This document shows positions 21,367 through 47,940 of a DNA stretch of 51,827 nucleotides, in pieces. A model generated the notes under the pieces. That model was not told where the DNA came from. It did no database searches and was given only the letters and a program-made list of their open reading frames with translations. How positions within the stretch are numbered: position 1 is the stretch's first letter; each line of letters begins with the position of its first letter. The position numbers and the translations under genes were made by a program. Source of the stretch: Acidimicrobiaceae bacterium (GTDB taxonomy: Bacteria > Actinomycetota > Acidimicrobiia > Acidimicrobiales > Bog-793); contig DAHUXW010000041.1 in NCBI GenBank assembly GCA_027306925.1, positions 1 through 51,827 of the forward strand. Direction: 5' to 3'.

Positions 21367-21370
21367 TCGG

Positions 21371-28031: not shown

Positions 28032-28445
28032 TCATTCGGGATCGGTCGGGCCGAGCGGCGGCGGAACCTCGACTCCGAGCTCCTCGAGCGTGTCGGTGAC
28101 GACGCGGATGGCGTTCAGCGCGCGGGGGAAGCCCGCGTACTGAACGGTGTGGATGACGGTCTCGAGGATCTCGGTCGCGCTGAGCCCCGCCCGTATCGCG
28201 CCGCGCGTGTGGCCGCGCACCTGCGGCTCGAGGCCGCCGAGCGCGACCAGCGCGGCGAGCGACGCCATCTCGCGCTGCGCGAGTGTCAGGCCCGGGCGCG
28301 AGTAGACGTCGCCGAAGTTGAACTCGATCCCGTAGCGGGCGAGATCCTGCGCCAGTCCGGTCTGCATGTCGATCAGGCCCTGCGCCCGACCCTCGCCGTA
28401 GAGCTCTTCGAACTTCTCGCGCCCGCGCCGCAACCGGTCGTTCAT
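28032..28445 (-). CDS. Carboxymuconolactone decarboxylase-family protein
   Basis: This 137-residue all-helical protein of the CMD/AhpD family has LYSRPGLTLAQREMASLAALVALGG in outline (VYSRPGLT here), HTRGAIRAGLSATEILETVIH, and YAGFPRALNA. No CxxC peroxidase motif is present, so it resembles the PcaC branch rather than AhpD. Relatives often sit in sugar or aromatic acid operons with unclear roles. The ATG at 28445 has a GAGGAGGG ribosome site. It lies between the SDR and oiaC in the same operon and may act on a sugar lactone or keto-acid, but nothing visible proves this. Confidence 0.8.
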   Translation of the reverse strand: MNDRLRRGREKFEELYGEGRAQGLIDMQTGLAQDLARYGIEFNFGDVYSRPGLTLAQREMASLAALVALGGLEPQVRGHTRGAIRAGLSATEILETVIHTVQYAGFPRALNAIRVVTDTLEELGVEVPPPLGPTDPE

Positions 28446-28460
28446 CGCACCCTCCTCTGG

Positions 28461-29210
28461 TCAGATCGAATGCCCGCCGTCGAGCGGGAGTATGACTCCC
28501 GTGATGTTCACGGCTGCCGGACCGGCGAGGAAGACGACCGCCTGCGCCAGGTCCTCCGGCCGGCCGAGCAGCCGGGTCGGGATCTGCGCGAGCAGCTCCT
28601 CCCTCCGCTCGGGTGTGTCCCGATCGCGACCGGGCGTCGCCTGTGCGCCAGGGGCGAGGCAGTTGACCGTCACGCCGTGCTCCGCGACCTCGATCGCGAG
28701 CGCCTTCGTCAGGCCGACCACTCCCGCCTTCGCCGCCGCGTACGCGGTCGCGCCGCGCACGAGACGCCCGCCCGCGATCGCGGCGACCGAGGCGATGCTC
28801 ACGATCCGGCCGTCCCGCTGCTCGAGCATGCCCGGGAGCACGTGGCGCGTCACGTTGAACACCGCGTTGAGGTTCCGGTCGACCTGCGTCGTCCAGGTCT
28901 CGGCGCTCATCTCGTGGAAGAAGCTGACCGCGCCCCCGCCCGCGCAGTTCACGAGGATGTCCACGCCACCGAGGCTCTCGCGTGCGGCCTCGACGCTCCC
29001 ACCGACGGCGTCGAAGTCGGTCAGGTCCACGACGAACGCGCGCGACGGGCGGCCGCGACCGGCGACGAGCTGGGCGGTCAGCTCGAGCCCGGGCCCGTCG
29101 AGGTCCAACCCCGCGACGGCCGCGCCCTCGTCGGCCAGCGCCGAGGAGATCACCCGCCCGAGCGCGCCCGCCGCTCCGGTCACGATCGCCCGCTTGCCCT
29201 GCAGTCTCAT
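28461..29210 (-). CDS. Short-chain dehydrogenase/reductase
   Basis: This classical SDR has 249 residues: the cofactor motif TGAAGALGR near residue 10, the NAG-type motif NCAGGG, and catalytic Ser in SIASVAAIAGG. The YxxxK is in TAYAAAKAG, and the C-terminus is GVILPLDGGHSI. An Asp at the end of strand 2 (GLDLDG) suggests NAD preference. It probably oxidises or reduces a sugar or sugar acid of the apiose/rhamnose pathway; a role as apiose or other aldose dehydrogenase is possible. It starts at ATG 29210 and is the second gene of the minus-strand operon that begins at operator 29673. Confidence 0.88.
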   Translation of the reverse strand: MRLQGKRAIVTGAAGALGRVISSALADEGAAVAGLDLDGPGLELTAQLVAGRGRPSRAFVVDLTDFDAVGGSVEAARESLGGVDILVNCAGGGAVSFFHEMSAETWTTQVDRNLNAVFNVTRHVLPGMLEQRDGRIVSIASVAAIAGGRLVRGATAYAAAKAGVVGLTKALAIEVAEHGVTVNCLAPGAQATPGRDRDTPERREELLAQIPTRLLGRPEDLAQAVVFLAGPAAVNITGVILPLDGGHSI

Positions 29211-29651: not shown

Positions 29652-29672
29652 CCGATCGGTCGTCCGGCTGAG

Positions 29673-29700
29673 TGGTCGACCAGTTGGCCACTGCTACCCT
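29673..29700 (+). promoter_or_regulatory. GntR operator site A and promoter of the GH78 gene
   Basis: The perfect palindrome TGGTCGACCA (29673-29682) overlaps the -35 region of a plus-strand promoter whose -10 is TACCCT (29695-29700). Almost the same arrangement recurs at 44235-44263. Bound regulator would block RNA polymerase and would also reach the divergent operon at 29651. Confidence 0.75.
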
Positions 29701-29743
29701 ACCCAACGGCACGGCACGTCGCACCGCAAAGGGGGACCAACAC

Positions 29744-32502: not shown

Positions 32503-33771
32503 ATGATGCTGGACCGCTGGGCACGCCTTCTCGAAGAGCACGTGCGCACGAATTGCGAGCAGATGACGCGCGAGCCCGACGGTCAGCTCGCCCATCCCTA
32601 CACGGTGCCGTCCAGCCCCGGTTCCCCTTACTACTCGAGCGCGCTGTGGGACTGGGATTCCTGGTCCATCAGCATCGTGCTCGGCCAGGTCGAGCTCGAC
32701 ACGGACTGCAGCGGTCGATTCGCGGCGTACGAGCAGGGGTGCATCCTCAACTTCCTCGACCACACCGACGACGACGGCGTCATGCCGATCCAGCTCACGC
32801 CCGAGAAGACCCTGACGCACGGCGACCCGACGCGCGCCGGAGGGTTCGCCGAGAACATGCACAAGCCGGTCGTGGCGCAGCACGCCGCGCTGCTGACCCA
32901 GCGCATCGGGAGCGCCGACTGGATCCGCTCGCGTGTGCCGACGATCGGTCTGTTCGTCGATCGTTACCTCGAGAGCCACGTGCATGCCGACACCGGCCTC
33001 GCTTACTGGCAGAGCGACTTCGCGGTGGGCGTGGACAACGACCCGTCCGTCTTCTACAGGCCGAACAAGAGCACTGCGTCCGTCTACCTCAACTCGCTGC
33101 TCTACCGCGAGCTGCTTGCGTACGCGTACCTGCTCGAGGAGCTGGGTGACCTGCCCGAGTCGAACCGTCGGCGCCGTCGGGCGCAGGACCTCGCGGACGC
33201 GATGGACGTCCACCTCTGGGACGAGCGAGACGGTACGTTCTACTCGGCCGACCTCGCGCTCCGGCCCGTCGACCCGGGGGACTGGCTGCACCGAGGCGCC
33301 CCGCGATCGTGGCCGGCGCTTCTCATGCGCGTCGACGGGTGGTCGAGCTTCCTTCCGATGTGGGCGGGCCTCGCGACCCACGAGCAGGCCGAGCGCATGG
33401 TGGAGCGCGTCCGCGACCCGCGCACGTTCCAGGCGACCTACGGAGTCCGCAGCCTCTCGTGTCTCGAGAAGATGTACGACCTGCGCGCGTCCAACAACCC
33501 GTCCAACTGGCTCGGCCCGGTCTGGGGCATGAGCAACTACATGGTGTTCCGAGGGCTCGTGAAGTACGGCTTCGACGAGGACGCCCGCAGGCTCGCCGAG
33601 AAGACCGTGCGGCTGTTCGGGCGCGACCTCGAGACCTCTGGCGGCCTGCACGAGTTCTACCACCCCGACTCGGGCGAACCCGTGATGACCAAGGGCTTCC
33701 AGAACTGGAACTTCCTCGTCCTCAACATGATCGCCTGGCTCGACGGGCGGGTCGCGGTCGCCGAGTTCTAG
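32503..33771 (+). CDS. GH63-like (alpha/alpha)6 glycoside hydrolase
   Basis: This 422-residue cytoplasmic protein has the pattern of mannosylglycerate-hydrolase/trehalase-like six-hairpin enzymes (GH63/GH37 clan). It has SPYYSSALWDWDSWSIS near residue 40, HKPVVAQHAALL, KSTASVYLNSLLYRELL, LWDERDGTFYSADL, FLPMWAGLATHEQAERMV, and NWLGPVWGMSNYMVFRGL. FHEFYHP-like HEFYHPDSGEP and KGFQNWNFLVLNM are near the C-terminus. WDWDSW and the Trp/Glu-rich end fit the clan's catalytic Asp/Glu pair. The substrate is unknown; context suggests an intracellular plant-derived disaccharide. It starts at ATG 32503, just after the regulon operator, and stands alone on this strand. Confidence 0.75.
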   Translation: MMLDRWARLLEEHVRTNCEQMTREPDGQLAHPYTVPSSPGSPYYSSALWDWDSWSISIVLGQVELDTDCSGRFAAYEQGCILNFLDHTDDDGVMPIQLTPEKTLTHGDPTRAGGFAENMHKPVVAQHAALLTQRIGSADWIRSRVPTIGLFVDRYLESHVHADTGLAYWQSDFAVGVDNDPSVFYRPNKSTASVYLNSLLYRELLAYAYLLEELGDLPESNRRRRRAQDLADAMDVHLWDERDGTFYSADLALRPVDPGDWLHRGAPRSWPALLMRVDGWSSFLPMWAGLATHEQAERMVERVRDPRTFQATYGVRSLSCLEKMYDLRASNNPSNWLGPVWGMSNYMVFRGLVKYGFDEDARRLAEKTVRLFGRDLETSGGLHEFYHPDSGEPVMTKGFQNWNFLVLNMIAWLDGRVAVAEF

Positions 33772-33833
33772 GACCCGCGGCGGACCGCGGACCGCGGCCC
33801 GCCGCCCGTGATCGCGGTCGTCCGTCGCGGGTC
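33772..33833. terminator. Inverted repeat between convergent genes
   Basis: GACCCGCGGCGGAC at the left pairs with GTCCGTCGCGGGTC at the right with one mismatch, and inner CGCG segments can extend the stem. It sits exactly between the ends of the GH63-like gene and the convergent cupin gene, so a bidirectional terminator role is likely. There is no U-tract. Confidence 0.5.
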
Positions 33834-34251
33834 AGGCGGACTGGCTCCAGTGCGGCATCGCTCCCGCGTCGAGCACGCGAGCTCCGGGCAAGGAGTCGAG
33901 GACGGTCTCCGCGCCTCCGGGGGTGTAGACGACGACCAGCCGCAGCGGGCTCCACGTCGTGTTGTACGTCGAGTGCAGGACGTTTGTCGGAATGTACACG
34001 ACGTCGCCTTCGGCGATCGGGAAGCGCTCCTCGTCGTCACCCTCGCCGACCGTCTGGATCCCCCGTCCCGAGATGACGTAGATCACCTCTTCCTCGCCCG
34101 GGTGCCGATGCGGGGCGTGCCCTTCGCTCGGGTAGACGATCACCTCGCCCGTGGTCAGCCCGGCACCGTCGTCGAGGTGCGGCGTCACCAGCCACTTGAT
34201 CGTCCCCCAGTCGAACACCCTCGTCGGGACGTCATCCGCCGTGCGATGCAT
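33832..34251 (-). CDS. Cupin protein at the end of the Tm-1-like operon
   Basis: This single-domain cupin has 139 residues, with metal-site motif 1 in [22 protein letters not shown] and motif 2 in [21 protein letters not shown]. The ATG at 34251 has GGGAGGA eight bases upstream and overlaps the end of the PEP-hydrolase-like gene by 20 bases. Such proteins often isomerise or stabilise sugar acids, but the activity cannot be inferred. It is the last gene of an operon with the two uncharacterised proteins upstream. Confidence 0.82.
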
Positions 34252-35098
34252 CTCTGGTTCCTCCCGTAGGTTCGCTGTGCCCGAGGGCCGACTTGAACTC
34301 CTCGGTCTGAAGACGGATCGCCCGCTCCGTCGGCAGCCGCTCGACGGAGGATGCCCCGAAGAAGCCGACGACGCCGGTAGTGCGCGCGAGCACGTACGCG
34401 GCGTCGGGCGGCTCGCTGATCGGGCCCCCGTGGCACAGGACGACGACGTCGGGGTTCACCGCGGCCGCAGCGTCGCGCATCACCTGGATCCGGTGGGCGG
34501 CCTCGTCGAGGCTGAGCGCGGTCTTCGCCCCGATCGTGCCCGAGGTCGTCAACCCGACGTGCGCGACGACGATGTCTGCGCCCGCCGCGGCCATCGCCGC
34601 GGCCGAATCTTCGTCGAAGACGTACGGCGCGGTCAGAAGGTCGCGCTCCGCGGCGAGGCGGACCATCTCGACCTCGAGGTCGTAACCCATCCCGGTCTCT
34701 TCGAGGTTCTGGCGGAACACCCCGTCGATGAGGCCGACCGTCGGGAAGTTCTGGACGCCGGAGAATCCCATCGTCCGGAGCTCGTCGAGAAAGCGACTCA
34801 TGACCCTGAACGGATCCGTCCCGTTCACTCCCGCGAGAACCGGCACGTCGCGCACGACGGGCAGGACCTCGCGGCTCATGTCGACGACGATCTGGTTCGC
34901 GTCGCCGTACGCGAGCAGTCCCGAGAGCGAACCCCTCCCGGCCATCCGGTAGCGCCCCGAGTTGTAGATGATGATGAGATCGGCTCCACCGGCTTCGGCG
35001 GCCTTCGCGGAGATGCCCGTCCCCGCTCCGGCGCCGACGATCGCCTCGCCGCGTGCGATCGTCTCACGCAGGCGGGCGAGCGCCCGCTGCCGCTCCAC
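34232..35098 (-). CDS. PEP-hydrolase-like TIM-barrel protein (PF09370 type)
   Basis: This 288-residue TIM barrel belongs to the family annotated as phosphoenolpyruvate hydrolase-like or TIM-barrel signal protein. It has [35 protein letters not shown] in outline, then [28 protein letters not shown] and [67 protein letters not shown] completes it. The reaction of this family is not established to my knowledge. It almost always travels with a Tm-1-like partner, as here (one-base spacing). GTG 35098 has GGGAGG nine bases upstream. The gene is under the island's GntR-type operator. Confidence 0.85.
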
Positions 35099-35099
35099 C

Positions 35100-36341
35100 T
35101 CAGTCCACCTCCCGGATCATCGCGTCCAGCGCCTCGGCGGCGCGCACTGCGAGATCCTCGTCGTTGATGTTCCCGGGGTGGTCGATCACCGTGACCGCCG
35201 ACCCGGCCACCGCGCCGAGGACCGCCTCGAAGAGCCGACGGTCCGCCTCGGGGTCGTAGAACTCCTCGCCCTCGGCGTCGATCGCCGACACTCCTCCGCG
35301 GGGGACGACGAGCACGGTCGGAGCTCGAGAGGCGGCGAGCTTCGCACCCAGCCGGCGACCGAGCTCCTCGCACTCCTCCGGCGTCGTGCGCATCAAGGTG
35401 ACGGTGGGGTTGTGCACGTGGAGGTGGCGATCCCTGAACTGCTCGGGCACGCTCTCGACCGGACCGAAGTTCACCATGTCGAGCGCGCCGAGACCGACGA
35501 CCTGCGGCACGCCCGCGGCCCCGGCCGCCGTCACACGTTCCGGGCCTGCGCTCAACGTGCCGCCGACGAGGTCGTCCGCGAGCTCGGTGGTGGTCAGGTC
35601 GAGCACGCCGGCGAGAAATCCCGAGCGCGCCAGGTTCTCGAGCGCACGTCCTCCCGAGCCGGTCGCGTGGAACGTGAGCACCTCGTAGCCGAGCTCCTCG
35701 AGTCGGCGCCTCGCAGCGCTCACCGCAGCCGTCGTGACCCCGAACATCGACGCGCCGACGAGCGGCCGGCCGCGCGCCGCGGGTGTCGCCGCGCGGCTCG
35801 CGTGCGTGCGCGCCATCGCCGCGATCGCCGCCGCGGCGTTGGCGAGGACGGCGCTCGACACCTGGTTGATCCCGGCCACGTCGACGACGCTGTACATCAA
35901 GGTGACGTCGCTGGCGCCGACGTAGGCGGAGACGTCGCCGGACACCATGGTCGACACCAACAGCTTCGGCAGACCGAGCGGGAGGTCGCGGACTGCCCGC
36001 GCGGCGATCGACGACCCACCGCTGCCGCCGAGCGCGAGCACGCCGTCGAGGTCGCCTCCTTCGTGGAGCTCTGCGAGCACGCGCGCCGCGCCCTCGCCCA
36101 TCTCCGTGACCGCACGCCCGCGGTCGCGGGCGCTTCGAAGGCGGTCGAGGTCGGAGCCGGCCGCGCGCGCGACCCGCCGCTGGTCGATCGCGACCGGGCC
36201 GTCGAACCCTTGCGGGTCGAAGACTCCCGTGTCGACGACGATCGCGCGAGCGCCCGCCGCCGCGAGTCGCTCGGCAACCCACGCGATCTCGGTGCCCTTG
36301 GTATCGAGCGTCCCGAGCAGCGCGACACCTGGTGTCGTCAA
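35100..36341 (-). CDS. Tm-1-like ATP-binding protein (UPF0261/PF06792)
   Basis: This 413-residue member of the family includes the N-terminal half of the tomato Tm-1 resistance protein. It has [19 protein letters not shown], a glycine-rich loop [51 protein letters not shown], and VFHATGSGG-type [43 protein letters not shown] follows near the end. Its enzymatic function is not known. TTG 36341 follows a very strong GGAGGGGGGAG ribosome site. It is the first gene of the operon with the PEP-hydrolase-like protein and a cupin, downstream of operator site C. Confidence 0.87.
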
Positions 36342-36420: not shown

Positions 36421-37476
36421 CTACTCCCTGGGGACGAGGGGGAAGTACGGCCGGGACCCGGCGAGCACCCGTAGGACCTCGTCCACCATGAGGTCGAAGA
36501 AGCGCGGCTCGCTCGCGGCGGTCACGCCAGCGATATGCGGACTGAGGAAGACGTTCGGCATGGTCCGGAGCGCGCAGTCCACCGGAATCGGCTCGGGCTC
36601 GACCACGTCGAGGCACGCGACCACGTCACCGCGCGCGAGACGCGCGACGAGCGCCTCGGTGTCGACGACGGCACCGCGCGACACGTTCACGAAGACCGCA
36701 CCCGGTCGCAGGCGCTCGAGCTCGGCGGCGCCGATGAGCCCGCGCGTGCCCGCCGTGAGCGGGACGAGGCACACGACGACGTCCGATCGCTCGAGAACGG
36801 CGTCGAGCGAAGTCAGCTCGAGCCCGTAGATCGGCCCGAGCTCGCTCGGCGCTCCGGGGTCGTGGGCCAGCAGCGACACCGCGAACGGCTCGAGGAGCGC
36901 GATGAGCCTCCGGCCGACGTTTCCGACGGCGAGCAGCCCGACGGTCTTCCCGCTGAGCTCGCCTCCCAGGTATCCGGGATCCTGCCTGAAGACCTCTCGG
37001 TCCGGCCAGAGGACCTCTCCCGCGACGAGGCGGCGAAAGTGCGCTCCCGCGTTGCGCAGGCCGACGAGGACGAGCGCGAGCGCCCATTCGGCGACGGGGT
37101 CGGAGGAGCCGTTCGTCGTGTCCACGACCGCGATGCCGCGACGTGCGGCGGCGGCGACGTCGACTCGCGCAGCGAACCGGTCGCCGTGCGTGTCGCCGAC
37201 CACCTTCAGCGACGGGGCGGCCGCGAGCACCTCGTCGGTCACCCGCGGCGCGCCGTAGCCCACGACGAGCGCGTCGAGATCGCGTGCGAACTCACGCAGC
37301 CGCCTGGTGAGCGGCGGATCGACGGGTGGGGGCCCCGAGGTGCGCGACGGCCCGGGGAGCTCGAGCACGGTCACGTCGGCCGCTGCGCGCAGCCGCTCGA
37401 GAGACGCCGGGCCGACGTAGCGCGCCCGCGCCGCGGCGGTGCACACGATCCCGACCCGCGCGCGGCGCTCAGGCAC
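36421..37476 (-). CDS. D-isomer-specific 2-hydroxyacid dehydrogenase
   Basis: This NAD(P)-dependent dehydrogenase has 351 residues. The catalytic domain carries the substrate Arg region VVGDTHGDRFAARVDV. The Rossmann motif is LLAVGNVGRRL (about 180-190), followed by FVNVSRGAVVDTEAL and the His in NVFLSPHIAGVT. The glycine motif GNVG and the position after an amidohydrolase fit oxidation or reduction of a sugar-derived 2-hydroxy/2-oxo acid; the substrate is unknown. GTG 37476 overlaps the amidohydrolase stop codon by eight bases. It is the last gene of the ABC transporter operon. Confidence 0.85.
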   Translation of the reverse strand: MPERRARVGIVCTAAARARYVGPASLERLRAAADVTVLELPGPSRTSGPPPVDPPLTRRLREFARDLDALVVGYGAPRVTDEVLAAAPSLKVVGDTHGDRFAARVDVAAAARRGIAVVDTTNGSSDPVAEWALALVLVGLRNAGAHFRRLVAGEVLWPDREVFRQDPGYLGGELSGKTVGLLAVGNVGRRLIALLEPFAVSLLAHDPGAPSELGPIYGLELTSLDAVLERSDVVVCLVPLTAGTRGLIGAAELERLRPGAVFVNVSRGAVVDTEALVARLARGDVVACLDVVEPEPIPVDCALRTMPNVFLSPHIAGVTAASEPRFFDLMVDEVLRVLAGSRPYFPLVPRE

Positions 37477-38353
37477 CGCGCACCGCCTCGCCGACCGAGA
37501 GCCAGCGTGCGACGTTGCCTCCGAGCACGGCCTCGAGGTCGCCAACGGAGAGGAAGGGCGCGTGCCCCCGCAGCAGCTCGAGGGATTGCCGATACGTGAC
37601 GTGCGGCAGGTTCGACGGGAAGTCCGACCCCCACACGAGCCGCTCGGGGCCCCAGGCGTCACAGAAGCGCCGCACGAGCGCCATCCGGTCGCCGTACGGG
37701 TACTCCCACGGCCTCGGGTGCCCGTAGTAGAGACCGGACACCTTGGCGAGGAGGTTCGGGACGTCGTCGTAGCCGAGGAGCCGGCGCTCCGAGTCCTCGC
37801 CTCCACCCGGGCCGAGCGCGACGCCGCCGAGATGGTTCACGAGCAGGCAGAGCGGCGGGAACCTCCTCGCGACCTCTCGCAGATCCGCGTGCCAGGGTGC
37901 CGACGCCGCCAGGCTCACGACGAGGCCGTGATCGGCGGCGACGGCGAAGAACGCGAGCCCTTCGGAGGAGACGAGCCACCCGTCGTTCACGGGCCCGAGG
38001 TAGTGGGAGACGCCGACGGGACGGTACTTCTCGACGAGCAGTCGGAGCCGCTCGGCCGCGCCCGCGCGGTGGTAGTCGCCGCTCCAGCGGCTGTCCGCGT
38101 CGACAAGCTGGCTCAGCCGCCCCGCGTGCGCCGCCGCCGTGCGCGCCCCGTAGTCGTTGTTGTCACGGGCGTTCTCGATCTCGGCGCTCACGAACAGGGC
38201 TCGCCCGACCCCGCAGGAATCCATCTCGAACAACAGGTGTGCAGCGCTGCCGCGGGTGAGCGGGTCGGGGACACCCGCGCCGTGTGGCCAGCGCGACCAC
38301 GCGTGCGCGTGGCAGTCGACGATCACCACTGCGCACGGTTGCGCGCACCGCAC
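37469..38353 (-). CDS. Amidohydrolase-2 family protein, candidate sugar lactonase
   Basis: This 294-residue metal-dependent TIM barrel starts with the HxH motif in VIVDCHAHAWSRW. CLLVNHLGG supplies the strand-5 His, and LVWGSDFPSNLPHV supplies the terminal Asp. The subfamily (PF04909) includes sugar lactonases, for example those of fungal and bacterial rhamnose or fucose oxidation, and decarboxylases. Its place in a sugar uptake operon makes a lactonase most likely. GTG 38353 has AAGGGG upstream and lies four bases from the permease stop codon; GTG 38329 is an alternative start. Confidence 0.8.
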   Translation of the reverse strand: MRCAQPCAVVIVDCHAHAWSRWPHGAGVPDPLTRGSAAHLLFEMDSCGVGRALFVSAEIENARDNNDYGARTAAAHAGRLSQLVDADSRWSGDYHRAGAAERLRLLVEKYRPVGVSHYLGPVNDGWLVSSEGLAFFAVAADHGLVVSLAASAPWHADLREVARRFPPLCLLVNHLGGVALGPGGGEDSERRLLGYDDVPNLLAKVSGLYYGHPRPWEYPYGDRMALVRRFCDAWGPERLVWGSDFPSNLPHVTYRQSLELLRGHAPFLSVGDLEAVLGGNVARWLSVGEAVRGA

Positions 38354-38357: not shown

Positions 38358-39272
38358 TCACCCCTTGACCGCTCCCGACGTGAGACCCCGCATGATCTGC
38401 TTGTTGATGAACAGGTAGAGGATCAACAACGCGAAGATTACGATGCTGATCGCGGCAAACAGCGGACCGTACGCGACGCTGCCGTACTGGCCGTTGAAGT
38501 TCAGCAGCCCGACCTGGATCGTCGAGAGCGACGGCTTCGAGTTGAAGGTCAGCGCCACGAGCAGGTCGTTGAACACCGAGAAGAAGACGAGCATGCCGAC
38601 CGTGAAGATCCCGTTCCGCACGAGCGGAAGGGCGACGGAGAAGAAGCAACGATAGGTGCCGCCGCCGTCGATCGCGCACGCCTCGAACAGCTCACGGGGC
38701 ACGGAGCGGAAGTACGTGGCCATGAGGAACACCGTGAGCGGCAGACCCTGGCCCACGTAGGTGATGATCATGGGTAGCAGCGTGTTGTTGAGCCCGAGCT
38801 TGAAGTAGATCTCGAACAGCGGCAAGAGCACGAGCTGCGCGGGGACCATCAGGCCGCCGACCAGGAAGAACAGGATCCCGCCCCGGCCCTTGAACACGAG
38901 CACCTCGAGGGCGAACGCTGCCCCGGCGCCGAGCAGCAGGATGACGACCACCGAGCTCACCGTGACGATCAGGCTGTTGATGACGTCGCTCGGGATGTGC
39001 GCGGTCGTCCACGCCGACGCGTAGTTCCCGAAATCGAGCTTGCTCGGGATCGTCCACAGCGGCTGCGACACGAACGCGTTCTGCGTCTTGAGCGAGCTCG
39101 TGAGCAGCCAGAAGAGCGGGTAGATCTCGACCACCAGGATGATCCCGATGATCGCCCGCGTGAGCGTCTTGCGCGAGAGCTGCACGGTGCGCGCCCGACC
39201 TGGGCGGGCCCGGGTGACCCGTGCCCGACGGGTCGAGACCGCCGACTCCACCCGGCCGCTGCTGATCGCCAT
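38358..39272 (-). CDS. Sugar ABC transporter permease (MalG/UgpE type)
   Basis: This inner-membrane permease has 304 residues and about six hydrophobic helices, for example IIGIILVVEIYPLFWLLTSS, VSSVVVILLLGAGAAFALEV and FFLVGGLMVPAQLVLLPLFE. The EAA loop that contacts the ATPase is RELFEACAIDGGGTYRCFFSVALP. The basic N-terminal tail of about 35 residues is longer than usual. The gene follows the partner permease by six bases. It belongs to the CUT1 family that imports oligosaccharides and glycosides. Confidence 0.92.
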   Translation of the reverse strand: MAISSGRVESAVSTRRARVTRARPGRARTVQLSRKTLTRAIIGIILVVEIYPLFWLLTSSLKTQNAFVSQPLWTIPSKLDFGNYASAWTTAHIPSDVINSLIVTVSSVVVILLLGAGAAFALEVLVFKGRGGILFFLVGGLMVPAQLVLLPLFEIYFKLGLNNTLLPMIITYVGQGLPLTVFLMATYFRSVPRELFEACAIDGGGTYRCFFSVALPLVRNGIFTVGMLVFFSVFNDLLVALTFNSKPSLSTIQVGLLNFNGQYGSVAYGPLFAAISIVIFALLILYLFINKQIMRGLTSGAVKG

Positions 39273-39278: not shown

Positions 39279-40163
39279 TCAGTCCTTCGTGATGTCGCGT
39301 CGCAGGGAACGGAAGACGACCACGGTGACGACGAGGCTCAAGCCGGTGATGAGTAGTGCGATCGTGCTGCCGTAGCCCCAGTTGTCGTAGTTGAAGGACT
39401 CCTGGAACATGTACAGGTTGAGCGGCGTCGTGGCCGTCCCGGGGCCGCCGTTGTTCAAGGCCAGGATCGAGTCGAAGACCTTGAGGTCGGCGTTCAGCGC
39501 GAAGATCGTGGCCGCTGCCACGATGGGGCGGGACATCGGGAGGATGATCCGCCGCAGCAGGCCGAACCCGCTGGCCCCGTCGATCCTTGCGGACTCGATC
39601 ACCTCCTCGGGAATGTCGAGCAGCCCGACGTAGAGGATCACGGCGAAGAGGCCCACCGATCGCCACATGTCCATCGCGATGATCACGACGAACGCGTGGC
39701 TGCCCGAGACGAACCAGTCGACTGGATGTCCGCCGAACAGATGGATGATCGAGTCGACCGGGCCTGCCTGCGGGGTCACGGCGAAGAGCTGTGCGAAGAG
39801 GAGCGCGATCGCGACCGTCGGCAGGACGACCGGGAAGAACACGAGCGTGCGGATGAAGGTCGACGACCGGCGCAGCACGAACTTGAAGAGCAGCGCGAGC
39901 GAGTAGCCGATCACGATCTGGCCGACCGTGAGCACGGTGGCGTACTTGACCGTGAACCAGAGCGTCTGCGGGATCGTCGGGTCCGCGAACAGCGCCCGGA
40001 AGTTCTTGAGCCCGGCGAACGCAAACCCGGACGCCGGGCTTCCCGTGAAGACGGAGTAGACGAGCGACCAGCCGACGGGGACGACGATCACGCCGATGTA
40101 CACGAGCAGGGCGGGGGCGAGGAAGAACGCGATTGCTCGCCTGTTGCCGAACACCTGGCGCAT
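39279..40163 (-). CDS. Sugar ABC transporter permease (MalF/UgpA type)
   Basis: This inner-membrane permease has 294 residues. The first helix is AIAFFLAPALLVYIGVIVVPVGW. The EAA motif is PEEVIESARIDGASGFGLLRRIILPM, the ATPase docking loop. About six membrane helices are present, including TFIRTLVFFPVVLPTVAIALLF. It follows the binding-protein gene after a spacer containing a strong hairpin. No ATPase gene is present in the window, so a shared MsmX/UgpC-type ATPase encoded elsewhere is expected. Confidence 0.93.
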   Translation of the reverse strand: MRQVFGNRRAIAFFLAPALLVYIGVIVVPVGWSLVYSVFTGSPASGFAFAGLKNFRALFADPTIPQTLWFTVKYATVLTVGQIVIGYSLALLFKFVLRRSSTFIRTLVFFPVVLPTVAIALLFAQLFAVTPQAGPVDSIIHLFGGHPVDWFVSGSHAFVVIIAMDMWRSVGLFAVILYVGLLDIPEEVIESARIDGASGFGLLRRIILPMSRPIVAAATIFALNADLKVFDSILALNNGGPGTATTPLNLYMFQESFNYDNWGYGSTIALLITGLSLVVTVVVFRSLRRDITKD

Positions 40164-40260: not shown

Positions 40261-41619
40261 CTACGGCTGCGACTGGTCCGCCTGCAAGATGCCCATGTAC
40301 TGCTGCGGGCTCATGGCCCCGGTCACGAGCGCAGCTGCGTTCCCGGAGGCGTCGTCGTTTGCCTTGAGACCGAAGAGCGCCTCGAACCAGAGCACGCTCT
40401 GCTTCGCGGAGTTGATGGTCTTCTGGATCGTCTGGGTGATCGGAGCCAGGCCGGCGACCGGCTGGTTCGTCCGGAATCCTGTGAACACACCCTGGTCCTT
40501 GAGCGACGCGCTCCCGTAGTTCTCAGCGATGCACTTCAGCCACGCCTGCGCGTGGGGACCGTAGAGGTTCGGGTTGATCACGTTCGGCGAACCGGTGTTC
40601 GCCGGGTACTGCCCGATCGATCCCTTGCCGCCCTTCACCGCCGGGAACGGCATGAAGCCGACGTTGTCCCGGCCGACCTTGTCCTGCGAGGAGAGGATCT
40701 GGGCGAGAAGCCACGTACCCATGTACATCATGGCCGACTTCCCGTCCAGGAACTGGGCGACCGCCGCGTTGTAGCTGAGGTTCGTGATGCCAGGTGAGAA
40801 GTACCCGTCCTTGCCCATCTGGGCGACCTGCTTGGCCGCCGTCATGTACGCCGCCGAGGTCAGCGACGCCTTCTTCTGAGCGATGAGGTTCATGGCGTTC
40901 GGGCCGAGCTCGCGGAAGAGCAGGACGCCGACCCAGCGGCTGATCGTCCAGCCGGAGGAGCCCGAGGCGCTGATCGGGATGATGTGGGCCTTCTTCAGCA
41001 CTGCCGCGTCGGCGAGCAGCTGGTCGAACGTCTTCGGCTGCGTGAGGTGGTGGTTCGCGAAGATCCTCTTGTTGTAGAAGAGGCCCTCGATGTTCATCTG
41101 GAACGGCACCGACGGGACGCCACCCTGGAACTGCGCCTTCGTCGTCGACAGGGCGAGCGGAGTCATGTCGTTTCCGACGCCGAGCTGGTTGAGCGCGCTC
41201 TCGACGTTGAGCACGTCGCCCTTCTTCACGAGCGACCCGCCGGGGATGATGTCGGGGTTCGACGCCGCGTACATCAGCGGGAGGTTGTTCTGCGACGCAA
41301 GCAGCTGGATCTTGGACTCGATGTTCTGGCTCGGCGTCTGCTGGAGGGCGATCGGCTGGGCCTGCGCCTCGGTCTTGCACGAGGTCGTGGCCAGTTTCTG
41401 CAGCTCCGCCGGTGTCTGGGTGTCCTCGGTCGTCAGCAGGATGGAGAAGCTCGACTGGTCCGTTCCGTGCGCGGTCGCGCCGCTCGCGTGTGAGAGACGC
41501 GCCGGCACCGAGCTGCTCGCGCTCGCGCTCGTCGTGGACGCGACAAGTGCGAGCGTGCTCATGCCAGCGGCCGCCGCGACGAGCGCGCGGCGCGTCCTGC
41601 CTGCGGATGGTGATTTCAA
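40261..41619 (-). CDS. Sugar ABC transporter substrate-binding protein
   Basis: This CUT1 extracellular solute-binding protein has 452 residues. Its signal peptide comprises KSPSAGRTRR, the hydrophobic ALVAAAAGMSTLALVAS, and TTSASA. No lipobox cysteine is present, unlike most Gram-positive binding proteins. The mature part shows NIEGLFYNKRIFANHHLTQPKTFDQLLADAAVLK, GSSGWTISRWVGVLLF and FLDGKSAMMYMGTWLLAQIL. I choose TTG 41619 because GGGGGGAAG lies just upstream. The ATG at 41664 and the longer frame to 41706 overlap or precede the predicted transcription start. It is the first gene of a five-gene operon. Confidence 0.9.
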   Translation of the reverse strand: MKSPSAGRTRRALVAAAAGMSTLALVASTTSASASSSVPARLSHASGATAHGTDQSSFSILLTTEDTQTPAELQKLATTSCKTEAQAQPIALQQTPSQNIESKIQLLASQNNLPLMYAASNPDIIPGGSLVKKGDVLNVESALNQLGVGNDMTPLALSTTKAQFQGGVPSVPFQMNIEGLFYNKRIFANHHLTQPKTFDQLLADAAVLKKAHIIPISASGSSGWTISRWVGVLLFRELGPNAMNLIAQKKASLTSAAYMTAAKQVAQMGKDGYFSPGITNLSYNAAVAQFLDGKSAMMYMGTWLLAQILSSQDKVGRDNVGFMPFPAVKGGKGSIGQYPANTGSPNVINPNLYGPHAQAWLKCIAENYGSASLKDQGVFTGFRTNQPVAGLAPITQTIQKTINSAKQSVLWFEALFGLKANDDASGNAAALVTGAMSPQQYMGILQADQSQP

Positions 41620-41662
41620 GGCACTTCCCCCCGATCTGTCTTCACTGAATTGTTGAAACGTC

Positions 41663-41690
41663 ATAATAGCGGTGCGCGTCAGGTTGTCAA
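41663..41690 (-). promoter_or_regulatory. Promoter of the ABC transporter operon
   Basis: The minus strand carries a perfect TTGACA (41685-41690), a 16-base spacer and TATTAT (41663-41668). It is one of the best promoters in the window. The implied start near 41656 shows that translation must begin downstream, at TTG 41619. Confidence 0.75.
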
Positions 41691-41699
41691 CTGGTCGTG

Positions 41700-41709
41700 T
41701 GGTCAACCA
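41700..41709. promoter_or_regulatory. GntR operator site D
   Basis: TGGTCAACCA lies 10 bases upstream of the -35 box of the transporter promoter. A related half-site pair, TTGTCAACTGGTC (41684-41696), overlaps the -35 box, so two regulator dimers could bind here. Confidence 0.7.
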
Positions 41710-41848: not shown

Positions 41849-43255
41849 TCACTCCTGCGGCGAGCGCGCGCGGAGCACGCGGCCCACCGCCTCGAGGTTC
41901 TCGTGGGTCATCTCCGAGTACTTGCGCGACAGGACCACGCCGTCGGCGCCGGCGTCCAGCGCGGCACCGAGCGCTGCGCCGAGCCGGGCGGGGGTCGTCT
42001 GCCGGACGTGCGGCGGGGTGGAGACGTTCACGTCGAGCCCCGGGTAGACCTTCGCGGACCCCGCGAGCGAGTCGACCGCGCGCGCGGTCTCACGCCGCAC
42101 GTAGTCGGCCGAGAGGCCGCGCTCGGGCAGATCGTCGAAGCGCACGTCCTCGTCGTACCCGAGGACCGCCTGGCAGAGGTCGAGCAGCACCTGCTCGCCG
42201 ACACCTCGGAAGATCCCCGCCGCGAGGGCTTGGACGTGATGGTGGAGGCGATAACCCGCGCAGTCGCCGTAGAGGACGGGCTTGACGAAGTCGACACATC
42301 CCGCGAGGTCGGAGAAGTCGCTCTGCGCCCGGTGGAGCGGCGAGAAGGAGTTGTGGTGCCAGAGATGCCACCCGACCTGGACCTGTGGATCCAAGAACTT
42401 CACCGCGCCGTAGATGCGCCTCTGCAGCTCGCGGTACCCGTCGTGCCACAGCTGGTCCCACCCCAGGATCTCCGGATACCGGCCGAGCAGCCGGAGGAAC
42501 CGGACGAACGCGCTGTCGCCGGCCGGGGCGCCGTCGTCGACATCGCGCACCAGCTCGTCCAGCTTCACGTACGCCTCGCGGGTGCGGCGGCTGTCCATGC
42601 CGCGCCGTTCGCCGGCCGCCTCGCAGTGCGCGCAGAAGCAGTACGGGTTGCCGTTCCGGGCGAATCCGCCGCCGCCGAGCACGTTGCCGAGGGGTCCTCC
42701 GCGTTCCGACCCGAACATCAACCCGTCGAGCGGATACGACGTGACCTGGTCCTCGATCAACGCGAGCCACCACGTCACGTAGTCGGGGTTTCGCAGGCAC
42801 GCATCGGTGTCGAGCCGCCCCCGCGCGTCGACCTGGAGGACCCTCGGCCAGCCGGCGACTCCCCGCGTGAGGCCCGAGTGGGTGTTCTCGAGCACGAACG
42901 AGTAGACGGCCTGCCCGCGCTCGCGCGCCGCGGGGATCACCCGTGCGAGGACGTCGAAGCCCGCGACCTGCGCGTCGCGCGCGCGGTGGGCGCCGATCAC
43001 GGCGGCGCGGTAGAACTCGTCGTGCTGGGTCACGTAGGAACCGCCCGAATGGTCGTCGGGCTCCGTCGGACCGTGGCCGGGCCACGGACGTCCCGGCACC
43101 TGCCGACCCTGGACGCCGCGGTCGAACGACTGGGTCGCGAGGAACAGCGCGTTCACGCAGGCCTTCTCCGCGACAAGGTCGAGGACCTCGTCGACTCCCT
43201 CGTCGACGAAGGAGACGGCGCCGATCTGGATCCCGACGAGCGGGGCGGCCGCCAC
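41849..43255 (-). CDS. Uncharacterised TIM-barrel protein, candidate glycoside hydrolase
   Basis: This 468-residue protein belongs to no family I can name with confidence. It starts VGIQIGAVSFVDEGVDEVLDLV and has the look of a (beta/alpha)8 retaining glycosidase. Visible elements are AVYSFVLENTHSG, DYVTWWLALIEDQVTSYPLDGLMFGSERGGPL, the zinc-like cluster YCFCAHCEAAGE, and VGWHLWHHNSFSP. KPVLYGDCAGYRLHHHV and VYPGLDVNVSTP come later. The cysteine cluster after strand 4 recurs in uncharacterised GH-like barrels. There is no signal peptide. GTG 43255 lies 10 bases after apnO, so it is the second gene of the apnO operon and may cleave an apiose-containing glycoside. Confidence 0.65.
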   Translation of the reverse strand: MAAAPLVGIQIGAVSFVDEGVDEVLDLVAEKACVNALFLATQSFDRGVQGRQVPGRPWPGHGPTEPDDHSGGSYVTQHDEFYRAAVIGAHRARDAQVAGFDVLARVIPAARERGQAVYSFVLENTHSGLTRGVAGWPRVLQVDARGRLDTDACLRNPDYVTWWLALIEDQVTSYPLDGLMFGSERGGPLGNVLGGGGFARNGNPYCFCAHCEAAGERRGMDSRRTREAYVKLDELVRDVDDGAPAGDSAFVRFLRLLGRYPEILGWDQLWHDGYRELQRRIYGAVKFLDPQVQVGWHLWHHNSFSPLHRAQSDFSDLAGCVDFVKPVLYGDCAGYRLHHHVQALAAGIFRGVGEQVLLDLCQAVLGYDEDVRFDDLPERGLSADYVRRETARAVDSLAGSAKVYPGLDVNVSTPPHVRQTTPARLGAALGAALDAGADGVVLSRKYSEMTHENLEAVGRVLRARSPQE

Positions 43256-43265: not shown

Positions 43266-44159
43266 CTAGTCGCCGGCGGTGCTTCCCGCCGCGGTCACCT
43301 CGGGATCACGTCGCACCGCGTCGATCCGCAGCATCTTCGCGATGACGTCGTCCAGCTCCTTGTCGTCGAAGATCTTCTTCCAGTCGTCCCGGACGACCGC
43401 GCGACGGCCGTAGTCCATCGCGATGAGGCAACCCTCGGAGAACGGGTTGGAGCCGCGCAGCGAGTTCGTGAGCGCGACCTGCGTGTGACCGAGCAACATC
43501 GCCCTGGCCGCCTCCTCCGGCACGCCGGCGGTGTGGACCGCTTCGTGGAGCGCGTCCTTCAAGAGGCCGCTGATCATGCAGGTGATCGTCTCGACGAGCG
43601 TCGGCTCGAGCACTGCGAGCTGCTTGACCGTCACCCAGTGAACGCCGATGACGGGACCGTAGATCGTGCGGATGACCGCGGTGGCCCGCTCTCGTACCAT
43701 GTCGTCGCCGGACTCGAGCGCTGCGATGACGTCCTGAGGTGCGGCGACGCCCCCGAAGGTGTCGGCCCACTCCTCCTTCGACGTCCGCTCGAGGAAGATC
43801 GACGGATGGCACGGGTGCGCGACCGCGACGTGGACGTCGGGGCGACGGGCGATCACACCCGCGTACGCCGCTGCCGGGTCGAGCGTGAGCAGGATCGCCC
43901 CGGGGCGAAGACGTGGCACGATGGCTTCCGACACGTCGCCGAGCACGACGTCGGGCACGGCGAGGATGACGACGTCGCTCCGGGGTGCCGTGTCGAGCGC
44001 CTCGCTGAGTTCGCGACCCGCAGCCCGCACGCGGTCCTGGGCAGCAGGGTGGGTCTCGGAGTAGAAGACGGTGTATGGACTGCGAGCGAGATTGTCGGAC
44101 ACCCGCATGCCCATCTTGCCTCCGGCACCGACGACGGTCACGGTCAGGTCTGCAGTCAT
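43266..44159 (-). CDS. apnO: D-apionate oxidoisomerase
   Basis: This NAD-binding protein has 297 residues: the Rossmann motif VTVVGAGGKMGMRVSDNL at the start, ILAVPDVVLGDV, VAVAHPCHPSIF, and a C-terminal helical domain (GVHWVTVKQLAVLEPTLVETITCMISG) like the phosphogluconate dehydrogenase C-terminal family. The combination matches ApnO, which oxidises and rearranges D-apionate to 3-oxo-isoapionate. I choose ATG 44159, since GGAGAGAG lies about seven bases upstream and earlier starts lie at or before the -10 box. It diverges from apnL over a shared operator. Confidence 0.8.
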   Translation of the reverse strand: MTADLTVTVVGAGGKMGMRVSDNLARSPYTVFYSETHPAAQDRVRAAGRELSEALDTAPRSDVVILAVPDVVLGDVSEAIVPRLRPGAILLTLDPAAAYAGVIARRPDVHVAVAHPCHPSIFLERTSKEEWADTFGGVAAPQDVIAALESGDDMVRERATAVIRTIYGPVIGVHWVTVKQLAVLEPTLVETITCMISGLLKDALHEAVHTAGVPEEAARAMLLGHTQVALTNSLRGSNPFSEGCLIAMDYGRRAVVRDDWKKIFDDKELDDVIAKMLRIDAVRRDPEVTAAGSTAGD

Positions 44160-44211
44160 CCTCGCGCTCTCTCCATGCATCCGGCGGTGCCTTGCCACAC
44201 GCGCTGATCCC

Positions 44212-44241
44212 ACGATACCGCCCAACCGTTCGACTGGTCAA
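44212..44241 (-). promoter_or_regulatory. Promoter of the apnO operon
   Basis: The minus strand has TTGACC (44236-44241), an 18-base spacer and TATCGT (44212-44217). The -35 box lies inside operator site E. Confidence 0.6.
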
Positions 44242-44263: not shown

Positions 44264-44349
44264 GCGGAGATGCGGCGGCCCGGGCGCTCGACGTCCCCGG
44301 GTTCCGGCCGGTGACCCGGGACCACGACGGTGACCGTGCGGACCGCTCC

Positions 44350-46185
44350 ATGAGCCCCGACGCGGCGCGCGACGCGGCCGCCGCGTGGGGCGAGTCGCCC
44401 GGGGAGGGCACGGTGCACGCGTTCGCGTCGGGTGACTGGACGATGCTGCTCACCGGGCACGGGCTCGAGGACGTTGCGTACCGAGGAGACGTCGTCGCGC
44501 CCCGCGTCTTCTTCTCCGTGCGCGACGAGTCGTGGAGGAGCCCCGAGATCCCGATCTCCTACGACCTGCCGGCCGGCCCGTCGAAGACTCCCGGCGACGC
44601 GGTCACCTTCGCCGGCCGGGTCGCGGGACATCCCCTCACCGTGAACGGCTCCGCGCAGGTCGCCGGACGTGCGCTGCGGATCGCCTTCGAGCTCGACGTG
44701 GAGTCCGCGGTCGACGTCGCCCGTGCCGGACCGTGCGTCCTCCACACCCCGCCGGCCCCCGGCGCGCCCGTCGCGACCGGACCTCCTGGCGCCGAGACTT
44801 CGGTCGCCGCCCCCTCGCGCGTCTCCGCGCGCCCGGTCGTCTCGGGTTTTCGCCGGTTGCGCCTGCCCGCGGACGGTGTGGCCGTCACGGTCGAGCTCGA
44901 CGGTGCGCTCTTCGAGATGGAGGACCAGCGCAACTGGGGTGACGCCACGTTCAAGTCCTACTGCCCGCCGCTGAGCGCCGAGCGTCCGCTGCGGCTCGCA
45001 CCCGGGCCCCCCGCCGCGTTCACCGTCACGCTCTCCACGGAGGACCGCGCGACCGCGCCGAGCCGGAATCCTCCTGGCGACGCGGGCGCACAGGTCGGCG
45101 ACGTCGCCGACCTGTGCGCCGGAGCCCCGGTCGCGACGCTCCCCCCTATCGGCCTGACCCACCCCGGTGGCGAGCTGGACGACAAGACGCTGGCGCGGAT
45201 CGCGGAGATCGGACCGGCGTACGTCCACCTCCTCGTCGACCTCGGCGACGAGGAGTGGACCGACCGCCTGCGGCGCGACCTCGAGGTCGCTCGGCGCCTC
45301 GCCGGACACGCGGTGCTCACGGTCGACTGCCCACCCGGCCGCGAGGCGCGGCTTCACGCGCTCGCGTCGATCAGCTCGGGCGTCGCGGACACCGCGTTCC
45401 TCTTCGCGAGCGACGAGCCGGTCACCTCGGACCGGCTCGCCGACACGGCACGCCACGCGTTCGAAGGGAGCGGCGTCCGCGTGGGGGCGGGAACGCGCGG
45501 GCACTTCGCGAGCTTGAACATCGCCGGTCGGGTCCCGGACGCGGCCGAGGTCGTCGGCGTCGCGCTCGCGGGCGCGGCGCACGACGACGACCGGCGCGCG
45601 ATCACGACCGGGCCCGCGAGCTACGCGGCGATCGTCGCCGAGGTGCGTAGGATCGCAGCCGGCCGCGACCTGTACCTCGGGCCGGTCGGGCTCGCGCCCA
45701 CCTTCGACTCGTGGCCCCCACGCGGTGCGGCACTCCCCGTGCGCGCGGCCTGGGACGGACCGCACCGCCGGCACTCCAGCCGTTTCGGCGCGACGTGGGC
45801 GGTCGCCGCCTACGCCGCGCTCGCCGCGCTCGGGCCGGCCCGCGTGTGCCTCGCCGGGACGGTCGGCGGGCGCGGTGTCGGCTCGATGGTCGACGGCCGC
45901 TTCCACCCCCATCCGCTGCACGCGGCGCTCGCCCGTCTCGCGGCGCTCGGACCGGGACCGTACGCGACCCTGCCCCCCGGCGGGTACGTCGCCGGGTTGA
46001 TCGGCGCCCAGGACGGGCTGGTCGCAGTGATGGGCGAGGACGGGTGGCGGGTGCCGAGCACCTCCGCCGGCCGACCGGTCGTCGCGCGCGCCGTGCTCCG
46101 CCCCGCGGCGCTTCCCGGGCGCGACGCGGTCGTGACCGGTCCCGACCTGGTCGCGCTGTCGTGGGGCGACGACCGATCCGTATAG
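44350..46185 (+). CDS. apnL: D-apionolactonase
   Basis: This 611-residue protein hydrolyses D-apionolactone to D-apionate if it is ApnL, as the layout suggests. It has an N-terminal beta-sandwich with DVAYRGDVVAPRVFFSVRD and LDGALFEMEDQRNWGDATFKSYC, and a central TIM barrel starting LTHPGGELDDKTLARIAEIGPAYVHLLVDL. A small C-terminal beta domain (YATLPPGGYVAGLIGAQDGLVAVMGEDGWRVP) closes the protein. This three-part build and the adjacent apnO match the apionolactonase family. ATG 44350 lacks a strong ribosome site. GTG 44311, overlapping the stop codon of a 14-codon upstream frame, is an alternative start. Confidence 0.75.
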   Translation: MSPDAARDAAAAWGESPGEGTVHAFASGDWTMLLTGHGLEDVAYRGDVVAPRVFFSVRDESWRSPEIPISYDLPAGPSKTPGDAVTFAGRVAGHPLTVNGSAQVAGRALRIAFELDVESAVDVARAGPCVLHTPPAPGAPVATGPPGAETSVAAPSRVSARPVVSGFRRLRLPADGVAVTVELDGALFEMEDQRNWGDATFKSYCPPLSAERPLRLAPGPPAAFTVTLSTEDRATAPSRNPPGDAGAQVGDVADLCAGAPVATLPPIGLTHPGGELDDKTLARIAEIGPAYVHLLVDLGDEEWTDRLRRDLEVARRLAGHAVLTVDCPPGREARLHALASISSGVADTAFLFASDEPVTSDRLADTARHAFEGSGVRVGAGTRGHFASLNIAGRVPDAAEVVGVALAGAAHDDDRRAITTGPASYAAIVAEVRRIAAGRDLYLGPVGLAPTFDSWPPRGAALPVRAAWDGPHRRHSSRFGATWAVAAYAALAALGPARVCLAGTVGGRGVGSMVDGRFHPHPLHAALARLAALGPGPYATLPPGGYVAGLIGAQDGLVAVMGEDGWRVPSTSAGRPVVARAVLRPAALPGRDAVVTGPDLVALSWGDDRSV

Positions 46186-46196
46186 GGAGGTACCAG

Positions 46197-47210
46197 ATGG
46201 ACTATGCGGTGCTCGGGACGTCGGGAATGCGCGTGTCGCGTCTCGTGCTCGGTACGGCGACCTTCGGTGTCGCGCCGCGCGAGGAGGAGGCGGACCGGGT
46301 CCTCGGGGCAGCCCTCGACGCGGGGATCAACATGGTCGACACCGCCAACGCGTACGGCAACCTGGCGCACTTCGATCGCGAGGGTGTGGCCCCGGCCGCG
46401 CAGCGCAAGTCGGCGGAGGAGATGATCGGCGCGGTGCTCGGCAGCCGACGCGACTCGCTGCTGCTCTCGACCAAGGCGAGCGAGCAGGTCGGACCTGGCG
46501 TGAACGACTCGGGACTGTCCCGACGCCACCTCGTCGAGCAGCTCGACCGGAGCCTGCGACGACTGCGCACCGACCACGTCGACCTGTTCTATGCGCACCA
46601 TCCCGACCCCGACACGCCGCTCGGTGAGACGCTGTACGTGCTCGACGAGCTTGTGCGGTCGGGCAAGACCCGCAGCTACGGACTCTCGACCTACCCGGCC
46701 TGGCAGACGATGCACGCGCTCTGGATCTGCGACCGGCGCAATCTCCGGACGCCGGCCTGCATCCAGGTGCGCTACAACCTCGTCGCGCGCCAGGTCGAAT
46801 CCGAGGTCGTCCCGCTCGCAGGCGAGTTCGGGCTCTCGCTCCTCGCCTTCAGCCCGATCGCCGGCGGCCTGCTGACCACGGCGGCGGCGCGCGAGCGCCC
46901 CTACACCGGTGAAACGCGCTGGGGCGGGGGCGCGTTCACCGACTCCCAGATCGACGCGGCGACACGCCTCGAGGAGCTCGCCCGGCGTTGGGGGCAGCCG
47001 CCTGCTCGGCTCGCCCTGGCGTGGCTGCTGCGCCGGCCGTCGGTCGCCGCGGCGATCATCGGGCCGGAGTCGGCCGACCAGGTCGCGGCGAGCGCGGCGG
47101 CGGTGCCGCTCGCGACCGAGCTCGACGACGAGCACCTCGCCGAGCTCGACGCGATCGGCTCGGCCGGGGTCGTCGATCCCCGTCCACGCTCGAGCCGGGC
47201 CCGGAGCTGA
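46197..47210 (+). CDS. Aldo/keto reductase, candidate D-apiose 1-dehydrogenase
   Basis: This AKR barrel has 337 residues and an intact catalytic tetrad: D48 and Y53 in DTANAYG, K93 in STKAS, and H134 in YAHHPDPD. The NADP-binding C-terminal end is AAAIIGPESADQVAASAAA. GGGAGG precedes the ATG at 46197, 11 bases after the apnL stop codon, so the two are co-transcribed. Since its neighbour opens apionolactone, oxidation of D-apiose at C1 to that lactone is the most economical role. Some AKRs are known aldose 1-dehydrogenases. Other aldehyde or glycoside substrates remain possible. Confidence 0.82.
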   Translation: MDYAVLGTSGMRVSRLVLGTATFGVAPREEEADRVLGAALDAGINMVDTANAYGNLAHFDREGVAPAAQRKSAEEMIGAVLGSRRDSLLLSTKASEQVGPGVNDSGLSRRHLVEQLDRSLRRLRTDHVDLFYAHHPDPDTPLGETLYVLDELVRSGKTRSYGLSTYPAWQTMHALWICDRRNLRTPACIQVRYNLVARQVESEVVPLAGEFGLSLLAFSPIAGGLLTTAAARERPYTGETRWGGGAFTDSQIDAATRLEELARRWGQPPARLALAWLLRRPSVAAAIIGPESADQVAASAAAVPLATELDDEHLAELDAIGSAGVVDPRPRSSRARS

Positions 47211-47211
47211 G

Positions 47212-47940
47212 CTAGAGCGTCTGCTTGAGACGCCGGTCGGCGCGCTGCATCAGCTGGCGCATCCGCCTCTCGGCGTCGGCCGGCGCGCGCCGTTCGATCG
47301 CGTCGAAGACCGCCTCGTGCTCCTTGATCGTCGCCTTCATCGTGCCCTCGACTCGAAGCGTACGGTCGAACCACGCGCGCAAGAGCGAGCGGATGCTCTC
47401 CAGCAACGCCTCGAGCACGGTGTTCTTGGCGATGATCGCCGTCTCGAGGTGGAAGGCGATGTCGGCCTCGACGAACTCCTCGACCGAGGTATCCGGTGCC
47501 CGCATCTGCTCGAGATGGCATCTCAGCCGCTCGACGTCGTCGTCCGACGCGCGAGCGGCGGCCAGGTACGCGGCGAGCAGCTCGAGGTGCTCGCGCATCT
47601 CGACCAGGTCCTGGACTTCCGGCTGGGCGAGCATCAAGCCCCACTTCAGGGCCTGCGGAAGGAGCTGCGAGCTATCGGCCTTGAGATACGAGCCGGAGCC
47701 CGGCCGCACCTCGATGATGCCGAGGAGGTCGAGCGCCGCCATCGCCTCGCGGAGCGTGGACCGGCCCACTCCGAGCGTGTCGGCCATGTCACGCTCCGAC
47801 GGCAGCCGCGTGCCGGAGACGAAGTCGTCCTTCGCGAGCTCGTCGAGCAGCTGTCGGGCCACGACGCTCGCGGTGGACGTCCGCTCGATCGGCCTCAGCC
47901 GGGAGTTCGGGAACTCGATCTTCGCCGTTGGATCGGCCAT
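47212..47940 (-). CDS. GntR-family regulator, FadR (FCD) subfamily
   Basis: The 242-residue protein has an N-terminal winged helix (residues about 25-90) with GTRLPSERDMADTLGVGRSTLREAMAALDLLG and IEVRPGSGSYL. The all-helical FCD effector domain has LVEMREHLELLAAYLAA, the metal/ligand Asp and His in VEADIAFHLETAIIAKN, and the His in IKEHEAVFDAIERR. FadR-type proteins recognise palindromes of the TGGTC-n-GACCA kind, very close to the five TGGTC(G/A)ACCA sites in this island. It converges on the AKR gene with one base between the stop codons. The inducer is probably an apiose-pathway acid. Confidence 0.9.
   Translation of the reverse strand: MADPTAKIEFPNSRLRPIERTSTASVVARQLLDELAKDDFVSGTRLPSERDMADTLGVGRSTLREAMAALDLLGIIEVRPGSGSYLKADSSQLLPQALKWGLMLAQPEVQDLVEMREHLELLAAYLAAARASDDDVERLRCHLEQMRAPDTSVEEFVEADIAFHLETAIIAKNTVLEALLESIRSLLRAWFDRTLRVEGTMKATIKEHEAVFDAIERRAPADAERRMRQLMQRADRRLKQTL

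Follow-up and report, generated by a model that had tools for sequence, protein, structure and literature searches.

One branch of a GH42/GHL6-related protein family is tied to apionate catabolism in the 51,827-nucleotide stretch of DNA analysed here (the window). The gene concerned, at 41849-43255 on the minus strand, begins with GTG and encodes a 468-residue GH42/GHL6-like protein, predicted to be a cytoplasmic TIM barrel. This protein, referred to below as the target, is probably a glycoside hydrolase acting inside the cell, and it belongs to a family that, as judged from profile searches, is unannotated in Pfam and NCBIfam and functionally uncharacterised. An apioside is the single likeliest substrate, and we propose tentatively that the target is a beta-apiosidase.

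The open reading frame is a real gene according to its GC pattern, its orthologues and its dN/dS values. GC content at codon positions 1, 2 and 3 is 0.75, 0.47 and 0.93, with the strong third position also seen in neighbouring genes. Orthologues were found at 93, 72 and 61% identity, and dN/dS was 0.14 against the L001 orthologue and 0.21 against that of L003, so amino-acid-altering changes are fewer than silent ones. The gap between apnO and the target is 10 bases in the window and in L001, and 9 bases in L003. Coordinates, orthologues and coding statistics thus agree with the preliminary description of this DNA, which had reported a 468-residue frame 10 bases after apnO and had taken both genes to be co-transcribed. 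A promoter-like site is found at 44241-44212, just 5' of the apnO-type frame, and a second, stronger one at 41690-41663, between the target and the gene for a binding protein. This arrangement makes co-transcription of apnO and the target as a pair, on a single transcript, plausible. The second site (sigma-70-like, 11/12) coincides in part with the beginning of the binding-protein frame (TTG at 41706). The real start of that gene therefore probably lies downstream of this codon. No signal peptide is visible in the target, which appears to open directly with its first strand, in keeping with the intracellular protein described earlier; twin-arginine-type leaders were found on two distant relatives (Granulicella, Parabacteroides), at or slightly under the model cut-off.

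Apionate can derive from the plant sugar apiose, and the apionate pathway is a route to L-erythrulose. The D-apionate operon (apn/oia) was reported by Carter et al. 2018, and the enzyme names used here follow the D-apiose catabolism work as represented in PMC6302742 and PMC11747546. The gene before the target (43266-44225, minus strand) was assigned to an ApnO-type D-apionate oxidoisomerase by PF16896 and by 62% identity to its counterpart in the Erwinia and Pantoea operons. In these operons apnO sits with oiaC-, dihydroxyacetone-kinase-, triose-isomerase- and RpiB-type genes, all of which are carried by the window on the minus strand: an OiaC-type 3-oxo-isoapionate decarboxylase (PF01261; 27194-27994), a dihydroxyacetone-kinase-type L-erythrulose kinase (25405-27174), and RpiB-type (24933-25403) and triosephosphate-isomerase-like (24133-24870) erythrulose-phosphate isomerases, the starts of the last two being not settled. 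A divergent ApnL-like D-apionate lactonase (44305-46185, plus strand) matches NF049900 with an E value of 4e-24, scoring 85 bits where the cut-off is 750. Its alignment extends over the greater part of the ApnL model; ApnL-like genes at other apn loci share about 26-31% identity with this protein, whose substrate may have changed. An aldo-keto reductase gene (46188-47210, plus strand), with an approximately 29% identical gene also near two distant target relatives, and a GntR/FCD regulator of the apn set (47212-47940, minus strand) complete this side. The apnO label given earlier is upheld by the profile, the identity and the ApnL-like neighbour, and the linkage of apnO and oiaC with the kinase and isomerases identifies the neighbourhood, by gene content, as a true apionate cluster. 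No match to PF13204, the profile of the GH140 apiosidases, was detected in the target or anywhere in the genome, which bears out for GH140 the earlier statement that no known apiosidase family is evident.

A further set of genes accompanies the target. On the minus strand these encode an ABC sugar-binding protein (40261-41706), ABC permeases 1 (39279-40163) and 2 (38358-39272), a PF04909 amidohydrolase that may be a sugar lactonase (37469-38353), a D-2-hydroxyacid dehydrogenase resembling glyoxylate/hydroxypyruvate reductases (36421-37470, start not settled), a short-chain dehydrogenase (SDR; 28461-29210) and a carboxymuconolactone decarboxylase-like protein (CMD; 28032-28445). On the plus strand they encode a GH63/MGH1-like glycosidase (32503-33771) and a GH78 alpha-L-rhamnosidase (29672-32383). 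UPF0261, PEP-hydrolase-like and cupin genes lie between the 2-hydroxyacid dehydrogenase and GH63-like genes (33832-36341); the Rhodoglobus cluster (L002) showed none of them, so they are no fixed part of the set. An apparent L-rhamnose catabolism cluster upstream (17751-22537; FGGY kinase, aldolase-dehydrogenase fusion, TIM-barrel isomerase) fits with the cell using rhamnose that the GH78 enzyme releases.

For comparison, about 10 kb on each side of apnO was inspected at 16 loci whose genomes are not in the target-bearing group. Core apn genes were present at all 16. None had the target, the importer genes, the PF04909 amidohydrolase, a close 2-hydroxyacid dehydrogenase, a close SDR, or CMD-like or GH63-like genes, and a GH78 gene was found at one. 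The full accessory set occurs together with the target in the window and in G665. In G666 the GH63-like, GH78, SDR and CMD-like genes share one contig and the target lies on another, short one; L001, also a short contig, has the importer and amidohydrolase genes. By this distribution the target belongs to an accessory set attached to the apionate operon. A role as a core apionate enzyme was rejected because all 16 loci lack the target and because, among 300 genomes of the Rhodoglobus family, 62 carried apnO and only two a full-length target relative. Both of these carried apnO, a coincidence expected by chance at about 4% and weak evidence alone. In a sample of the phylum apnO was rare (7/396 genomes).

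The target stays under the cut-off of every Pfam and NCBIfam family, and a sequence and profile search of the PDB gave no clear natural protein match. The best PDB profile match, the apparently designed protein 8g8i (1.2e-5), aligned over a single short segment (profile 246-288) and was discounted. Phage and viral collections were also searched and yielded no relative. Profile-profile comparison, with 10 target-family members as query and ten GH42-type sequences on the GH42 side, gave P values of 2.4e-7 with GHL6 and 8.1e-6 with GH42. The controls, nine unrelated families from the target's own cluster, gave 0.11-0.70; they included its PF01261, amidohydrolase and PEP-hydrolase barrels, so glycosidases are closer to the target than these. 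Sub-threshold Pfam matches among family members pointed the same way: GHL10 at E 1.4e-5 (PF02638; best member 24.8 bits, gathering score 27.9) and GHL6 at 5.7e-4 (PF14871; 20.5 bits, gathering score 35), with no match to PF02449 (GH42) by the target or family members. AlphaFold was run twice on four sequences and returned mean pLDDT values of 50 and 45, both of low confidence, in which the active site is not visible. For the better, still low-confidence model, the leading Foldseek matches included barrels of GH42, Cwp19, PgaB and GH13, with Cwp19 on top (4e-4, weak model); at such pLDDT values these matches are no more than a hint. A glycosidase-type barrel related to GHL6, GH42 and GHL10 is supported by these comparisons.

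Asp18, Glu19, Cys153, Asp177, Glu184, Arg185, Cys206 and Cys208 are invariant in all 10 family members. In the target (codons on the minus strand) Glu184 (42704-42706) stands in an S/N/G/A-E-R motif behind a modelled strand at 178-183 and, at the end of strand 4, is the candidate acid/base. Asp408 (42032-42034), in a G-x-D motif and invariant in the seven members covering it, is the candidate second catalytic acid. We infer from residue order that strand 7 ends at Asp408 and strand 6 at Tyr329 (42269-42271; invariant in the eight members covering it). The preliminary description had looked to structure prediction for an acid pair; the Glu184/Asp408 pairing proposed here comes instead from conservation and strand order. 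In a retaining TIM-barrel glycosidase of the clan GH-A type, the two acids would face each other from the ends of strands 4 and 7, a geometry that models at pLDDT 50 and 45 are too poor to display. The CFCAHC cluster it had noticed is present at residues 206-211 (42623-42640), with position 211 being Cys, or His in the two Parabacteroides paralogues. A GH42 enzyme coordinates its zinc through four cysteines (PMC8573354): the first precedes the acid/base Asn-Glu and the other three follow it, which gives the order C, NE, CxCxxC. The same order, Cys153 (42797-42799; its flanks align to the GH42 profile), Glu184 and C206/C208/C211 (or His), is conserved across the target family, and CFCAHC is thus best interpreted as the C-terminal half of a zinc site like that of GH42. 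Cys153 would provide the first ligand and C206, C208 and C211 would complete the site; zinc binding by these residues is what we infer from this correspondence.

The proposed second acid, Asp and not Glu, is compatible with the target being a non-hydrolytic TIM-barrel enzyme (lyase, isomerase or phosphorylase) of the same catabolic set, and that set does hold several non-glycosidase enzymes whose roles are unclear. In addition, a sister family of about 410 residues, which aligns with the target family over almost its full length (P 5e-20, profile comparison), sits amid genes that by eye resemble creatininases, deacylases and RidA, away from evident sugar operons. We consider this reading unlikely, as the target's closest profile relatives are glycosidases, which it resembles more than it does the PF01261, amidohydrolase and PEP-hydrolase barrels of the cluster. 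Members of the sister family have a DEG start and CFCxxC; copies at L030:6495-9327 and L031:5320-8086 lie by creatininase-like and metallo-beta-lactamase-like genes, and others adjoin N-acyl-amino-acid deacylase-like and RidA-like genes.

The target family itself, with 36-93% identity, is scattered over a few Actinomycetota, Granulicella and Parabacteroides (including a plasmid record). All four genomes with close orthologues (61-93%, window included) carry apnO, and a clear oiaC was found in three of them. Neither gene was found in G480 or G495, whose relatives are at 36-42% identity, and a family-wide apiosidase role was rejected for this reason. The homologues of G480 and G767 adjoin GHL6/GH42-like genes and ABC importers, away from apn genes. 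This context, the existence of core apn operons without the target, and the fact that GH42 relatives are beta-galactosidases would all suit a glycosidase that acts on the same imported compound at another bond (e.g. beta-galactosyl, glucosyl or arabinosyl), with apiose freed by another enzyme or entering as free apiose or apionate. Such a role, which shares the glycosidase part of our preferred reading, is a serious possibility even if below an even chance; it is countered by the four closest orthologues, all from apnO genomes and three of them with the 9-10 base gap between apnO and the target.

At the Parabacteroides locus (L007:13381-20361) two target paralogues lie side by side, together with SusC/SusD-type genes, a GntP-family permease and a glycerate kinase, and there is no other hydrolase from SusD to the glycerate kinase. 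The locus suggests that other substrates exist within the family, which, given also the lack of apn genes in G480 and G495, is not apiosidase-specific as a whole. The placing of both paralogues between SusD and glycerate kinase plus GntP permease would also fit a target that frees a small sugar acid (e.g. glycerate) from a conjugate, as would the MGH1-like GH63 and glyoxylate/hydroxypyruvate-reductase-like genes of the window set and a malate-synthase-like frame, read by eye, after the target in Rhodoglobus. The linkage to apionate would imply the same substrate class. We regard this as improbable: the window cluster showed no glycerate kinase, and the annotations involved are broad. In Granulicella (L008:7779-17823) the relative lies amid proline-racemase, dihydrodipicolinate-synthase-like and peptidase genes, near GH127 genes, a neighbourhood that suggests use of hydroxyproline-rich glycoprotein there.

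Under the preferred reading, a small plant-derived glycoside would enter via the linked ABC transporter, and the target, the GH78 enzyme and the GH63-like enzyme would strip off its sugars in the cytoplasm. In the target, Glu184 at the end of strand 4 would serve as acid/base and Asp408 on strand 7 as second acid, with CFCAHC and Cys153 forming a structural zinc site. Freed apiose could be converted to apionate by a reductase or dehydrogenase and a lactonase of the set (oxidation to the lactone, ring opening), and apionate would then be processed by the products of apnO and oiaC. An apioside is favoured over any other single substrate because the released sugar most probably feeds the neighbouring apionate pathway. 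A substrate-freeing role would account for a target that the core pathway can spare yet that stands directly behind apnO, and for how the genome could manage without GH140; supply of substrate fits the accessory status of the gene. Apiose supply must differ in bacteria with the core operon and no target.

Counting against the preferred reading are the lack of any Pfam or NCBIfam match above cut-off, the low pLDDT, Asp rather than Glu on strand 7, distant relatives without apnO or oiaC, and core operons without the target. The new apiosidase proposed in the preliminary description is accordingly retained in part: a glycosidase-type barrel with candidate acids, a cytoplasmic location and linkage to apionate speak for it, and apiose as the sugar released is possible rather than probable. 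The two outcomes it had named as contrary, absence of an acid pair and clear membership in a non-hydrolase family, were not encountered. That the target founds a new intracellular beta-apiosidase family, GH42-like, zinc-stabilised, with a Glu/Asp pair, outside GH140 and feeding the apionate pathway, is likewise a tentative proposal. Enzymes that free apiose are poorly known relative to the apiose-consuming pathway, and a defined set of import and glycosidase genes on an apionate operon makes this missing step directly testable; an uncharacterised glycosidase-like family of actinobacteria, Granulicella and Parabacteroides would gain its first assigned function.

We compared the target with known systems. 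The apn/oia operon around it, with ApnO, OiaC, a kinase and two isomerases, is of the type found in Erwinia and Pantoea, but the target and the accessory genes lie outside the usual operon. GH140 (PF13204) releases apiose, the activity proposed for the target, and differs in its profile and in being absent from the genome. GHL10 (PF02638; Cwp19) is represented by sub-threshold Pfam matches (1.4e-5) and the top Foldseek match, but it stays under cut-off, and actinobacterial GHL10 aligns over just a short region. GHL6 (PF14871, hypothetical glycosyl hydrolase 6), the best profile match, has the Cys and CxCxxC in common with the target, and its genes adjoin two target-family members; the target and all family members nevertheless fall under its Pfam cut-off. 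The likeness to GH42 (PF02449) is a weak but specific profile match (P 8e-6), together with the order Cys, (N/S)-Glu, CxCxxC and a Tyr probably at the end of strand 6. In contrast to GH42, the target has 22 residues and not 5 between the Glu and CxCxxC, is too short for the trimerisation domain, and carries Asp408 where GH42 has Glu as nucleophile, its strand placement being predicted from order. Where GH42 has Asn-Glu on strand 4, the target family has an invariant Glu184 preceded by Ser, Asn, Gly or Ala. The zinc site occurs in many, not all, GH42 enzymes, and residues of the target match its four-Cys pattern.
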